Positions 5,533-11,117 of a DNA stretch of 64,000 nt are shown here, piece by piece; positions within the stretch are counted from its first letter, which is position 1; every line of letters begins with the position of its first letter. The notes beneath the pieces are model-generated. The model did not search any database and was not told the origin of the DNA. It saw only the letters and a list, made by a program, of their open reading frames with translations. The position numbers and the translations under genes were made by a program. This stretch comes from Herbiconiux oxytropis. GTDB lineage: Bacteria > Actinomycetota > Actinomycetes > Actinomycetales > Microbacteriaceae. Location: the NCBI RefSeq assembly GCF_024979315.1, contig NZ_JANLCK010000004.1, positions 124,001 through 188,000 of the forward strand. Direction: 5' to 3'.

Positions 5533-7620
5533 GTGGCCTCACCGTCCGACTACTCTGCCCGGCACCTCTCGGTGCTCGAAGGCCTCGAGGCCGTGCGCAA
5601 GCGGCCCGGCATGTACATCGGCTCCACCGACTCCCGAGGTCTCATGCACTGCCTCTGGGAGATCATCGACAACGCAGTCGACGAGGCCCTCGGCGGCCAC
5701 GGCACCGAGATCGACATCGTGCTGCACGCCGACGGCAGCGTGACCGTGCGCGACACGGCCCGGGGCATCCCGGTCGACATCGAGCCGAAGACGGGGCTCT
5801 CGGGCGTCGAGGTCGTCTTCACCAAGCTGCACGCCGGTGGCAAGTTCGGCTCTGGCTCCTACGCGGCGTCCGGCGGGCTGCACGGTGTGGGCGCCTCCGT
5901 GGTGAACGCCCTCTCGGAGCGACTCGACGTGGAGGTCGACCGCGGCGGCAAGACCTGGGCGATGTCATTCCACCGGGGTGAGCCCGGGGTGTTCGACGAC
6001 AAGGGCGGCGAGCCGAGCCCGGATGCGCCGTTCACACCGTTCGAGAAGCGCAGCGAGCTCCGCGTGGTGGGCAAGACCGCCCGCAACGTCACCGGCACCC
6101 GGGTGCGCTACTGGGCCGACCGCCAGATCTTCACGAAGGGCGCGGAGTTCCAGACCGACGACCTCACGGTGCGCGCGCGCCAGACCGCGTTCCTGGTGCC
6201 CGGCCTCAAGATCGCCATCGACGACGAGCGCGGCGAGGAGCCCCGCTCGGAGTCGTTCCGGTTCGAGGGCGGCATCTCGGAGTTCGTCGACCACCTCGCG
6301 GCCGACGCGCCCGTGACCGACATCTGGCGCATCGAGGGCACGGGCGAGTTCAAGGAGACCGTCCCGGTGCTCTCCGACTCCGGCGCGATGATCCCCACCG
6401 AACTCATCCGCGAGTGCGCCGTCGACATCGCGCTGCGCTGGGGCATCGGCTACGACACCTCGTTCAAGAGCTTCGTGAACATCATCTCGACCCCGAAGGG
6501 CGGCACGCACCAGGCCGGCTTCGAGACCGGTCTGCTGAAGTTCCTGCGTCAGACCGTCGAGGCGAACGCCCGTCGGCTCAAGGTGGGCAACGACAAGCTG
6601 GAGAAGGACGACGTGCTCGCCGGTCTCACCGCGGTGCTCACCGTGCGCATTCCGGAGCCGCAGTTCGAGGGTCAGACCAAAGAGATCCTCGGCACCCCCG
6701 CGGTGCGGAACATCGTCTCCCAGGTCGTGACCAAGGGACTCAAGGAGCGCTTCGCCTCCCCCAAGCGCGACGACAAGACGCAGTCGGCGCTCGTGCTCGA
6801 CAAGGTCGTGGCCGAGATGAAGTCGCGTATCTCCGCGCGGGCGCACAAGGAGACGCAGAGGCGCAAGAACGCGCTCGAGTCGTCGTCGCTGCCCGCGAAG
6901 CTCGTCGACTGCCGTTCCTCCGACGTGGTCAACAGCGAGCTCTTCATCGTGGAGGGCGACTCCGCGCTCGGCACCGCCAAGCTCGCTCGCAACAGCGAGT
7001 TCCAGGCGCTGCTGCCCATCCGCGGCAAGATCCTCAACGTGCAGAAGGCCTCGGTGGCCGACATGCTCTCGAACACCGAGTGCGCCTCGATCATCCAGGT
7101 GATCGGTGCCGGCTCCGGCCGCTCGTTCGATCTCTCGGCGGCGCGCTACGGCAAGATCATCCTCATGAGCGACGCGGATGTCGACGGTGCGCACATCCGC
7201 ACCCTCTTGCTCACCCTGTTCTTCCGCTACATGCGGCCGCTGATCGAGGACGGCCGGGTCTACGCCGCCGTCCCGCCGCTGCACCGGGTGGTGGCGATCA
7301 ACCCCGGCTCGAAGCCCAACGAGACCATCTACACCTACTCGGAGGCGGAGCTCGCCGCCGTGCTCGGTGCTCTCAAGAAATCGAACCGCCGCTACCAGGA
7401 CCCGATCCAGCGCTACAAGGGGCTCGGTGAGATGGACGCCGACCAGCTGGCCTCCACCACGATGGACAAGCGCCAGCGCACCCTCCGCCGCGTGAACGTC
7501 TCGGACGCCGCGGCCGCCGAGCGCATGTTCGAACTCCTCATGGGCGACGAGGTGGCCCCGCGCAAGGAGTTCATCATCGCCGGCTCGGGCGACCTGAGCC
7601 GCGAGAGAATAGATGTGTAG
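5533..7620 (+). CDS. parE: DNA topoisomerase IV subunit B
   Basis: 695-aa ATPase subunit of topoisomerase IV. The GHKL ATP-binding site shows WEIIDNAVDEA (catalytic Glu about 43, Asn 47). The TOPRIM metal-binding site shows VEGDSALG (about 474-480) and MSDADVDGAHI (about 546-555). The C-terminal motif RYKGLGEMDADQL is present. It starts with GTG preceded by AAGGAGAA at good spacing. It pairs with ParC, whose gene ends 450 bp upstream; the reverse-strand DUF7455 gene lies between, so the two subunits are not in a simple operon. Confidence 0.95.
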   Translation: MASPSDYSARHLSVLEGLEAVRKRPGMYIGSTDSRGLMHCLWEIIDNAVDEALGGHGTEIDIVLHADGSVTVRDTARGIPVDIEPKTGLSGVEVVFTKLHAGGKFGSGSYAASGGLHGVGASVVNALSERLDVEVDRGGKTWAMSFHRGEPGVFDDKGGEPSPDAPFTPFEKRSELRVVGKTARNVTGTRVRYWADRQIFTKGAEFQTDDLTVRARQTAFLVPGLKIAIDDERGEEPRSESFRFEGGISEFVDHLAADAPVTDIWRIEGTGEFKETVPVLSDSGAMIPTELIRECAVDIALRWGIGYDTSFKSFVNIISTPKGGTHQAGFETGLLKFLRQTVEANARRLKVGNDKLEKDDVLAGLTAVLTVRIPEPQFEGQTKEILGTPAVRNIVSQVVTKGLKERFASPKRDDKTQSALVLDKVVAEMKSRISARAHKETQRRKNALESSSLPAKLVDCRSSDVVNSELFIVEGDSALGTAKLARNSEFQALLPIRGKILNVQKASVADMLSNTECASIIQVIGAGSGRSFDLSAARYGKIILMSDADVDGAHIRTLLLTLFFRYMRPLIEDGRVYAAVPPLHRVVAINPGSKPNETIYTYSEAELAAVLGALKKSNRRYQDPIQRYKGLGEMDADQLASTTMDKRQRTLRRVNVSDAAAAERMFELLMGDEVAPRKEFIIAGSGDLSRERIDV

Positions 7621-7645
7621 GCGCGCCGCAGCCTCTGCGGCGCGC
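7621..7645. terminator. bidirectional terminator between parE and gatD
   Basis: A perfect 11-bp hairpin (GCGCGCCGCAG and CTGCGGCGCGC, 3-nt loop) starts on the base after the parE stop codon and ends on the first base of the gatD stop codon. It can serve both convergent transcripts. No long T-tract is present on either side. Confidence 0.8.
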
Positions 7646-8385
7646 TATTCAGACAGCGGCGCCGCCGCGATCGTGCCGCGCGCTTCACGTGCTCTGTCGT
7701 CGATCTCCCGGAGGCGCTCCGGGGCCGGGTCCGTGTAGCTGAGGCCTCGGCGGGTGCGGGCCGTGTCGAGGAGGGAGTCGGCCAGGCCCGGGTTGTTGGC
7801 GAGGATGGGGCCGTGCATGTGGGTGCCGAGGAGGTTGTCCTCCCAGAAGCCCTCCTCGAAGGGGGTCTCGGTGTTGCCGCGGCCGTAGACCACTCGGCCG
7901 AGCGTGCCGTGCGGGCCGACGTCGACGAACGATCCGCGGTTCTCGAAGCCCACGACGGTGCCGAGCCGGGGCGATTCCACCACGAAGTCGCCCACCACAC
8001 GCGTGCCGCCGTGCCGGGTGGCCACCGGGAAGACACCGGCGCCCTCGAGCACGTCGCCGCCCTCGAGCGCGATGGTCTGGCCGAGCAGCTGGAACCCGGC
8101 GCCGATGGCGAGGAAGGGCCGACCATCCGCCGCGAGCTCACGGAGCTCTGCGGCCACGTCGAGCACGAGCGGATGCGCGAGCAGCTGGGCCGAGGTGGGG
8201 CCACTGCCGATGAAGACGAGGTCGGCCTCGCCGAAGCCGGCGGAAGCGCCGCCATCGTGCCGCGTGATCTCGACGGGCAGACCGCGCCACTCGGAGCGCA
8301 GCCGCAGGATGTCGACGTTCCCGCTTTCACCGTTCAGGCCGAGAAGACGCGGGAACAGGTGCAGGATCTTCAGCGAAGCGCTCAT
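7645..8385 (-). CDS. gatD: GatD-like glutamine amidotransferase lacking the catalytic cysteine
   Basis: 246 aa, class I glutamine amidotransferase fold, partner of MurT. In staphylococci and streptococci, MurT-GatD amidates the alpha-carboxyl of D-Glu in lipid II, with GatD releasing ammonia from glutamine through Cys94 and His189. Here the motif reads LAIGAGFQLLG (residues 92-101): the residue four before Gln, normally Cys, is Gly95, and the whole protein contains no cysteine. The His in LLGTHMHGP (about 189) is kept. It can therefore hardly act as a glutaminase. Its ATG overlaps the murT stop by 4 nt (ATGA), so the two are translationally coupled. Confidence 0.85.
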   Translation of the reverse strand: MSASLKILHLFPRLLGLNGESGNVDILRLRSEWRGLPVEITRHDGGASAGFGEADLVFIGSGPTSAQLLAHPLVLDVAAELRELAADGRPFLAIGAGFQLLGQTIALEGGDVLEGAGVFPVATRHGGTRVVGDFVVESPRLGTVVGFENRGSFVDVGPHGTLGRVVYGRGNTETPFEEGFWEDNLLGTHMHGPILANNPGLADSLLDTARTRRGLSYTDPAPERLREIDDRAREARGTIAAAPLSE

Positions 8386-9728
8386 GCCGCTCCCCCGCCC
8401 TCGAGCTCCTTGAAACCCAGGATCTTGCGGATCAGCATCATCTGCTCGTAGTTCAGGATCATCACCTTGTGTCCGGTGGCGGGCTTCGGCCGGGCGAGGA
8501 ACGCCTTCAGCGCGCGGCGCACGTCGAGGTCGACCTCGCCGACCGGGATGCCGAGGTAGCCGAAGCGCACGGCGAACTGCCACGCCTTCGATCCGGTGAT
8601 TCCGTCGACGTGGTCGAGCGCCGAGAAGTCGATGTCGTAGATCCACGACGGATCGGGCGTGCCCTCGTCGACGGCGAGGAAGACCTGCTCGGGCGCGCCC
8701 TCGAGCGAGTCGAGGTTGAGCTGCAGGCTCGCCGGGTTCTTCATCATGATGATCTCGATCTGCTCACCGGCGACCTCGAGCATCTCGCCCCGGCCGTAGA
8801 CGGTCTCGAGGGTGTCGAGGGCGCGGGTCACGAGCTCGGGCCGGAACCGTTCGCCGAGCACGCTGCGCGCGGTCGCGGCCGCACCGGCGGCATCGAGCGC
8901 GTAGTGCATGCCGCGGGCCGGCAGACGGACCTCGATCTCGGTTCGAGAGGGCGCATCTCCTGCGGCGTCGCTGTCGCCGGTCTCGCCGTCCGCGGTCCAC
9001 GGGTCGATCGCGAGGGTGGCTCGGGCGCCGTCGAGCGCCACGACCTCGACGGCCGCAGCCCGGGAGCCCGGAACGGCCGATCCCTCGTCGAAGCGATCGG
9101 CCGAGGCCACACCGTGGCTCGCGTCGTCGACGAGACTCGGCACTCCGCCGAAGAAGCTGACCCGCCGACCGGAGCGGCCGGGGATCCGCGCATCCATGTC
9201 GACGAGGAAGTTGTCCTCGCGGTTGAGGATGAGTCCGTCGGTCGAGGCGGTTGCGACCCGTCCGAGCATCGTCGCCACGCGATCCGGTTCGTGGTACCGA
9301 TTGAGCTGATCGATCTGGATGTTCAGCAGCAGCACCGTGCGCGGCTTCAGCAGTTCGGCGAGCCGCGTGCCGTAGCCTTCGTCGATCTCGAGGATCGCGA
9401 TGTCCTTGTTCAGCCGCCCGCCCGCCGAGACCTCCGAGAGCAGAGCCGAGGCGATCCCCTGCGGGAGGTTGCCCCCGGAGGGGTTCGTGAAGACGCTCAA
9501 CCCGTGCGCCCGGATGATGGCCGCGAGCATGTTGGTGGTGGTCGACTTGCCATTGGAGCCGGAGACGGCCACGACGCCGTGCGGGATGCGCGCGATCGTG
9601 CGCTCGAGGAAGCCAGGATCGATGCGGAGCGCGATGTTGCCGGGGATGGCCGAGCCGCCGCCGCGAAGGCGCGCGGCGACCCTGACGGCCCGCCCCACGA
9701 GGACGGCTGCCGTGGTGCGGAGTGCCAT
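8382..9728 (-). CDS. murT: MurT-like Mur ligase family protein (no zinc-ribbon cysteines)
   Basis: 448-aa Mur ligase-type ATP-dependent amide ligase with C-terminal DUF1727. The P-loop SGSNGKSTTT (about 55-64) and the catalytic region WIYDIDFSAL (about 355) are present. Characterised MurT proteins carry a four-cysteine zinc ribbon inserted in the middle domain; this protein has no cysteine at all. The corresponding stretch (about 180-260) is Asp/Ala-rich and looks unrelated. The ATG lies 4 nt behind the sigA stop, so the likely operon is sigA-murT-gatD. Confidence 0.86.
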   Translation of the reverse strand: MALRTTAAVLVGRAVRVAARLRGGGSAIPGNIALRIDPGFLERTIARIPHGVVAVSGSNGKSTTTNMLAAIIRAHGLSVFTNPSGGNLPQGIASALLSEVSAGGRLNKDIAILEIDEGYGTRLAELLKPRTVLLLNIQIDQLNRYHEPDRVATMLGRVATASTDGLILNREDNFLVDMDARIPGRSGRRVSFFGGVPSLVDDASHGVASADRFDEGSAVPGSRAAAVEVVALDGARATLAIDPWTADGETGDSDAAGDAPSRTEIEVRLPARGMHYALDAAGAAATARSVLGERFRPELVTRALDTLETVYGRGEMLEVAGEQIEIIMMKNPASLQLNLDSLEGAPEQVFLAVDEGTPDPSWIYDIDFSALDHVDGITGSKAWQFAVRFGYLGIPVGEVDLDVRRALKAFLARPKPATGHKVMILNYEQMMLIRKILGFKELEGGGAA

Positions 9729-9732
9729 CGGC

Positions 9733-11043
<1,311 letters not shown>

Positions 11044-11117
11044 TAGTTCACCTTTCATGCCACGCGACCGGTGCTGGGATGAGATTCCCCGGCGTGAACG
11101 CCGGCCGCATGAAGATG

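Follow-up and report, generated by a model that had tools for sequence, protein, structure and literature searches.

We conclude that the murT- and gatD-like genes found between rpoD and parE in Herbiconiux oxytropis probably encode a MurT-GatD relative that has lost the making of ammonia and now serves as a ligase of the type B cross-bridge, with GatD as a structural partner and D-diaminobutyrate as the likely substrate in this organism. The evidence comes from the window (the whole stretch of 64,000 nucleotides that was analysed) and from comparisons with other genomes of the family Microbacteriaceae, of the order and of the class.

The window pair and its surroundings

The pair lies on the minus strand, where a gene for an rpoD-type sigma factor (9733..11058) is followed after a gap of 4 nt by the murT-like gene (8382-9728; 448 aa) and then, with an overlap of 4 nt, by the gatD-like gene (7645-8385; 246 aa). 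A gene for a parE-type topoisomerase subunit lies beyond on the opposite (plus) strand (5533..7620). The two bordering genes, named from sequence, delimit upstream (rpoD) and downstream (parE) what we call the slot. The overlap reads ATGA (8382..8385, minus strand) and combines the murT stop with the gatD start, from which we infer that the two genes are translationally coupled.

GatD has the class I glutamine-amidotransferase fold and matched GATase_3, and MurT matched Mur_ligase_M and MurT_C, all above the Pfam cut-offs. The NCBIfam equivalog cut-offs were missed by both GatD (142 of 450 bits) and MurT (109 of 800 bits), in a scan that covered the window pair. The GatD model (pLDDT 95.1) had a TM score of 0.88 against S. 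aureus GatD (6h5e_A). The MurT model (pLDDT 88.9) resembled MurT and other Mur ligases, and the solved chains closest to the window protein were those of MurT, by sequence as well as by fold. A search by MurT found a single MurT_C locus in the H. oxytropis genome, and the profile of the second Cys-less MurT clade described below had one match in it, the window's own MurT.

Both proteins are free of Cys. In an alignment with the solved GatD proteins of S. aureus, S. pneumoniae and S. pyogenes, Gly95 (codon 8101..8103, minus strand) occupies the position of the catalytic Cys. These results confirm a preliminary description of this DNA, which had reported a GatD without its catalytic Cys and a Cys-free MurT overlapping it by 4 nt; both open reading frames were found at the coordinates given above. 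The description had also stated that His189 was kept. The catalytic His is indeed present, but in the window protein it is His191 (of HGP; codon 7813..7815, minus strand), which aligns with S. aureus His189; that residue 189 of the window protein is also a His is a coincidence. MurT carries the nucleotide-binding motif (P-loop) GSNGKST (9540..9560, minus strand), and its Asp359 (codon 8652..8654, minus strand) aligns with D349 of S. aureus MurT, the third residue of the triad.

Loss of the catalytic Cys in the family

The loss of the catalytic Cys is widespread in Microbacteriaceae. We refer to the window's Cys-less MurT-GatD clade as clade I' and to a second Cys-less MurT-GatD clade as clade II'. 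Among 120 Microbacteriaceae genomes, 77 had a clade I' pair (GatD was read in 75; G010 and G038 were assigned from MurT only), seven a clade II' pair and two another Cys-less pair, and 16 had a CofE-like ligase without MurT. The remainder held a canonical Cys-bearing pair only (10 genomes), a Cys-bearing lineage-II pair (2) or none of these (6). A canonical Cys-bearing pair was present in addition in two of the 77 clade I' genomes (G054 with L013 and L063; G066 with L022 and L064), the Cys-less pair being located in the slot and the Cys-bearing pair elsewhere. In G015, which has a genome of 0.93 Mb, a divergent Cys-less pair (L081) is retained beside rpoD.

At GatD position 94, the 76 clade I' proteins had Gly (57), Ala (13), Ser (3), Asn (2) or Thr (1) and never Cys. 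The catalytic His was absent from 25 of these 76 and present in the other 51, and MurT Asp359 was found in 68/68 clade I' loci. In clade II', position 94 was His in 7/7 and the catalytic His was lost, and neither of the two divergent family loci had the Cys (0/2). Within the family, the Cys was kept at 12/12 canonical and 2/2 lineage-II loci. It was also kept at 50/50 fetched loci from the order's other families, and the 43 fetched loci from the rest of the class had Cys (40), Asp (2) or a gap (1), i.e. Cys in 40/42 readable loci. Taking the other families of the class together, Cys was thus present at 90/92 readable fetched loci, as against 0/76 in clade I', in a sample drawn from 92 non-family MurT_C genomes and from class-only genomes, partly as best matches and partly for spread. 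This retention may be overstated, because the outside loci were found by PF08353, which misses some Cys-less MurTs; as the sole detector it missed 5/13 family genomes with clade I' in the order sample. Two loci of family f43, both from one genus (L361, L362), have a third Cys-less GatD with Asp in place of Cys, on a long branch within lineage II.

We also scanned named genomes with a clade I'-specific sequence pattern, which matches 54/68 clade I' loci and none of the loci of other clades at hand. At least 120 stretches were found, and of the 80 listed with names, 78 came from genera that we take to belong to Microbacteriaceae. GatD was included in 101 of the stretches (gapped at the position in two) and absent from 19. 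The 99 readable GatDs had Gly (84), Ala (12), Asn (1), Ser (1) or Thr (1), and none had Cys. The two non-family names (L232 and L244; 'Planococcus' and an Acidobacteria bin) showed the same rpoD-murT arrangement, and these records are probably mislabelled or misbinned.

The preliminary description had raised the question whether Cys loss tracks B-type walls. The loss is concentrated in a B-type family, but a rule that each B-type species has a Cys-less pair had to be rejected, as it is broken by the 10 canonical-only, 2 lineage-II and 6 empty genomes. If these 18/120 genomes are B-type, other enzymes serve there. Rhodoluna, another member of the family, has a B-type wall.

A missing Cys4 zinc ribbon in MurT had also been read as a sign of new function. 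The MurT Cys counts in Cys-bearing and Cys-less clades do not bear this out. Fewer than four MurT Cys were found at 12/12 canonical Cys-bearing family loci and at 38/50 loci of the order's other families, so that most Cys-bearing lineage-I relatives likewise fall short of four. All seven clade II' MurTs have four or more. The available text of PMC6113224 confines the Cys4 zinc ribbon to a subset of MurTs.

Two Cys-less lineages in one slot

A MurT tree was calculated by a quick method from 95 selected rows without GatD columns, with long branches for L089, L090 and L081. Clade I' was monophyletic with an SH-aLRT support of 100 and clade II' with 99, and the two lay on opposite sides of a split supported by 96. 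As judged from these MurT sequences, clade II' is a separate descent from clade I'. RpoD was encoded in the fetched stretch of 67/70 clade I' loci and of 6/6 clade II' loci of the first set, and the seventh clade II' locus had it too (7/7). It was absent from the fetched stretches of 11 canonical family loci, of 50 other-family loci and of L089-L091. The positions of the two clades in the tree and their common location beside RpoD indicate that two Cys-less MurT-GatD lineages share one slot, which for clade I' lies between rpoD and parE. Three genera (g37, g42, g48) each include one sampled genome with clade I' and another with clade II'. The canonical-only pairs (10/120 genomes) sit outside the slot. 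Slots without any of the ligase genes considered here were seen at L178, L182 and L188-L190.

A CofE-like ligase in genomes without MurT

The slots of genomes without MurT varied in content: a CofE-like protein (PF01996), a protein with ATP-grasp_ST and a relative of alanine racemase were combined in different ways, and EctB was encoded in two of these slots. The CofE-like protein is a distant PF01996 member that scored far below the NCBIfam CofE cut-off. A stand-alone CofE-like ligase occurred in 16 of 23 genomes without MurT vs 1 of 97 with MurT (120 family genomes; Fisher 1e-13), a statistic that counts related genomes as independent. The mutual exclusion of MurT and CofE repeats within five genera (g85, g79, g7, g9 and g12), which lessens this dependence but does not remove it. 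The 23 MurT-less genomes were defined by a score threshold; G099, G100 and G119 were assigned by elimination, and G099 was scored as MurT-less although a clade I' fragment was found at a contig end. The sole CofE-like gene among the 97 MurT genomes was 34% identical and lay beside a divergent Cys-less MurT.

By the coordinates listed, the CofE-like gene follows rpoD immediately, or is removed from it by one gene, in at least 14/16 genomes. For 17 fresh family genomes the expectation was written down beforehand, and the CofE-like gene was present in 9/9 genomes without MurT and in 0/8 with clade I'. G049, which had also been listed as an expected carrier, lacked the gene; this was a miss, as the 120-genome sample had already shown. 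The order sample included six earlier-sampled family genomes without the CofE-like gene, of which five have clade I' and G049 has neither.

Neighbouring genes and a possible D-amino acid substrate

An ATP-grasp_ST protein was encoded near the CofE-like gene in 14/16 CofE genomes. Among the matches listed, an alanine-racemase relative lay within 6 kb of it in 9/16 genomes, and EctB (diaminobutyrate aminotransferase) was beside it in 2/16. Near MurT pairs, again among the matches listed, an alanine-racemase relative was found for 20/62 clade I' pairs (distances were available for 62 of the 77 clade I' genomes, the window excluded), 0/10 canonical-only pairs and 0/7 clade II' pairs; for the clade II' genome G111 and for the window's genome, one more match each was recorded without its position. 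No racemase is encoded in the window's own slot, and the H. oxytropis genome gave no EctB match at E 1e-90. Racemase proximity fits a D-amino acid substrate for genomes with clade I' or with the CofE-like gene and gives no support for one in clade II'. Tandem pairs of alanine-racemase genes lie away from the slot in nine genomes of the clade for which no racemase was listed in the slot (G011, G040, G026, G071, G034, G109, G004, G035 and G090), and one tandem copy may be the source of the D-diamino acid.

Proposed function of the pair

The B-type bridge uses the D-Glu carboxyl, and amidation there would block it. We propose that MurT, with ATP, activates the alpha-carboxyl of the stem-peptide D-Glu, a step modelled on the chemistry of MurT and the Mur ligases. 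A free amino acid, through its amine, would then attack the acyl phosphate in place of ammonia channelled from GatD, and GatD would be retained as an obligate structural partner. The nucleophile would probably be D-2,4-diaminobutyrate in Herbiconiux and possibly D-Orn, Lys or Gly in relatives. D-Diaminobutyrate is favoured by the wall composition of the genus, given in the available text of PMC10011130 as B2-gamma with D- and L-2,4-diaminobutyric acid. This fits poorly with Gly, which the preliminary description had put forward as the first bridge residue. Its wider suggestion, that the pair was repurposed to ligate an amino acid and that GatD acts as a partner, is the one that the locus context and the exclusion with a stand-alone ligase support best. 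The genus Microbacterium spans the diamino acids Lys, Orn and Dab (available part of PMC10757982).

The laboratory mutants of the S. aureus pair suggest what such a complex could do. With GatD C94G, Gln-dependent amidation was gone and NH3-dependent activity stayed, and MurT alone was inactive, according to the accessible text of PMC3266927; C94S and MurT D349N failed or were severely reduced (PMC6113224, same restriction). Gly95 is a natural copy of C94G, so the window complex could activate the carboxyl without ammonia of its own.

An ammonia-dependent amidase, in which MurT amidates D-Glu with free ammonia and GatD merely keeps MurT active, would be compatible with the retained catalytic residues of MurT. 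It would, however, place an amide on the very carboxyl needed for the bridge, and it predicts neither the exclusion with a stand-alone peptide-type ligase nor the racemase and EctB neighbours. The S. aureus C94G protein behaves in this manner at pH 8.5, but the wild-type pair used no ammonia at neutral pH, as far as the accessible text of PMC3266927 goes. We therefore regard such an amidase as unlikely.

A ligase for an amino acid or amine might instead use another acceptor, or add a later bridge residue, rather than act on the stem D-Glu. D-Glu as acceptor is inferred solely from homology to MurT, and a further ATP-grasp protein is encoded in CofE slots and in 4/7 clade II' slots, so that the steps may follow another order. 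The characterised MurT nevertheless acts on the D-Glu carboxyl, and many MurT residues are common to Cys-less and canonical pairs, though 14 well-conserved columns differ. To us this makes a different acceptor or a later residue quite improbable, and we retain the ligation of an amino acid to D-Glu as the preferred reading.

Purifying selection on GatD

A decaying amidotransferase of little function, held in place by its operon position, would account for GatD evolving faster than MurT and for the additional loss of the catalytic His in 25/76 clade I' members. Between the window and five relatives (L003, L004, L220, L262 and L005), dN/dS was 0.21-0.41 for GatD and 0.16-0.28 for MurT, which argues against decay. 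So does the presence of the pair in 77/120 genomes, several of them of 0.9-1.7 Mb, and its replacement by another ligase rather than mere loss. We give decay very little credence. Over all clade pairs, the median NG86 dN/dS of GatD was 0.74; this high value probably reflects synonymous saturation at high GC, and the all-pair values were therefore set aside beyond the near relatives. The purifying selection on GatD near the window fits a partner that is needed.

Glutaminase-coupled relatives outside the family

In 27 genomes of the order's other families, the CofE relative is part of longer open frames of 496-1016 aa. An Asn_synthase domain was found in 4/4 long CofE frames scanned by Pfam, together with a CofE match below cut-off in two. 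The class II glutaminase start MCGIAG was in the same frame in 5/8 longer stretches read; in the remaining three, L405 has MCGIAG in an upstream frame apart from the CofE frame, L401 reads MSG and L406 has no such motif. None of the 27 genomes was among the 92 MurT_C genomes (9 expected). The long asparagine-synthase and CofE-like proteins at L390-L408 (families f6, f12 and f18), from genomes without MurT_C, are candidate alternative D-Glu amidases.

Comparison of MurT-GatD with CofE thus indicates that two unrelated ligases have glutaminase-joined forms outside the family, mostly intact, and uncoupled forms inside it. Such a pattern would be expected if an amino acid had taken the place of ammonia as the nucleophile. 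The parallel is weakened by the 2/8 outside CofE fusions without a glutaminase start. With a confidence just short of even, we suggest that the rpoD-parE interval of Microbacteriaceae serves type B bridge synthesis as a cassette site, in which three ligases are interchangeable (two independently inactivated MurT-GatD lineages and the CofE-like protein) and racemase, diaminobutyrate and ATP-grasp options set the bridge chemistry. Each ligase would be related to a glutaminase-coupled form outside the slot, so that amidated walls would have given rise to B-type walls by glutaminase uncoupling.

Comparison with known systems

B-type peptidoglycan was reportedly classified half a century ago, by Schleifer and Kandler in 1972. 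Among the open-access entries listed (titles and beginnings of abstracts), none named an enzyme that joins the B-type bridge to D-Glu. The window pair provides a testable candidate for this ligase, one that carries a natural version of the laboratory C94G mutant, and the CofE-like ligase provides a second candidate, mutually exclusive with the MurT-GatD pair. Genomes may perhaps allow wall type to be predicted in this family, which relies on wall type for its taxonomy.

The closest characterised system is the MurT-GatD lipid II isoglutaminyl synthase of S. aureus, S. pneumoniae, S. pyogenes and mycobacteria, which has in common with the window pair the adjacent genes, the Mur ligase middle domain, MurT_C, the GatD fold and the equivalent of Asp349. 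The window pair differs from it by the missing nucleophile Cys and zinc ribbon, by a shorter loop before Asp359, by its location in the rpoD-parE slot and by its occurrence in a family with B-type walls. The canonical MurT-GatD pairs of Actinomycetales (L062-L072 and most of L093-L131) belong to the same half of the MurT tree as the window pair and likewise have fewer than four MurT Cys; unlike it, they have the catalytic Cys and His in all cases seen and are not beside rpoD or parE. The alternative ligase of the slot is a remote member of the CofE family (F420-0:gamma-glutamyl ligase, PF01996); it stands alone there, and no kinship to MurT was seen. MurC to MurF and the archaeal pseudomurein ligases are not known to work with a GatD partner. 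They have the fold of the window MurT, with which we propose that they also share acyl-phosphate chemistry and an amino acid as nucleophile.
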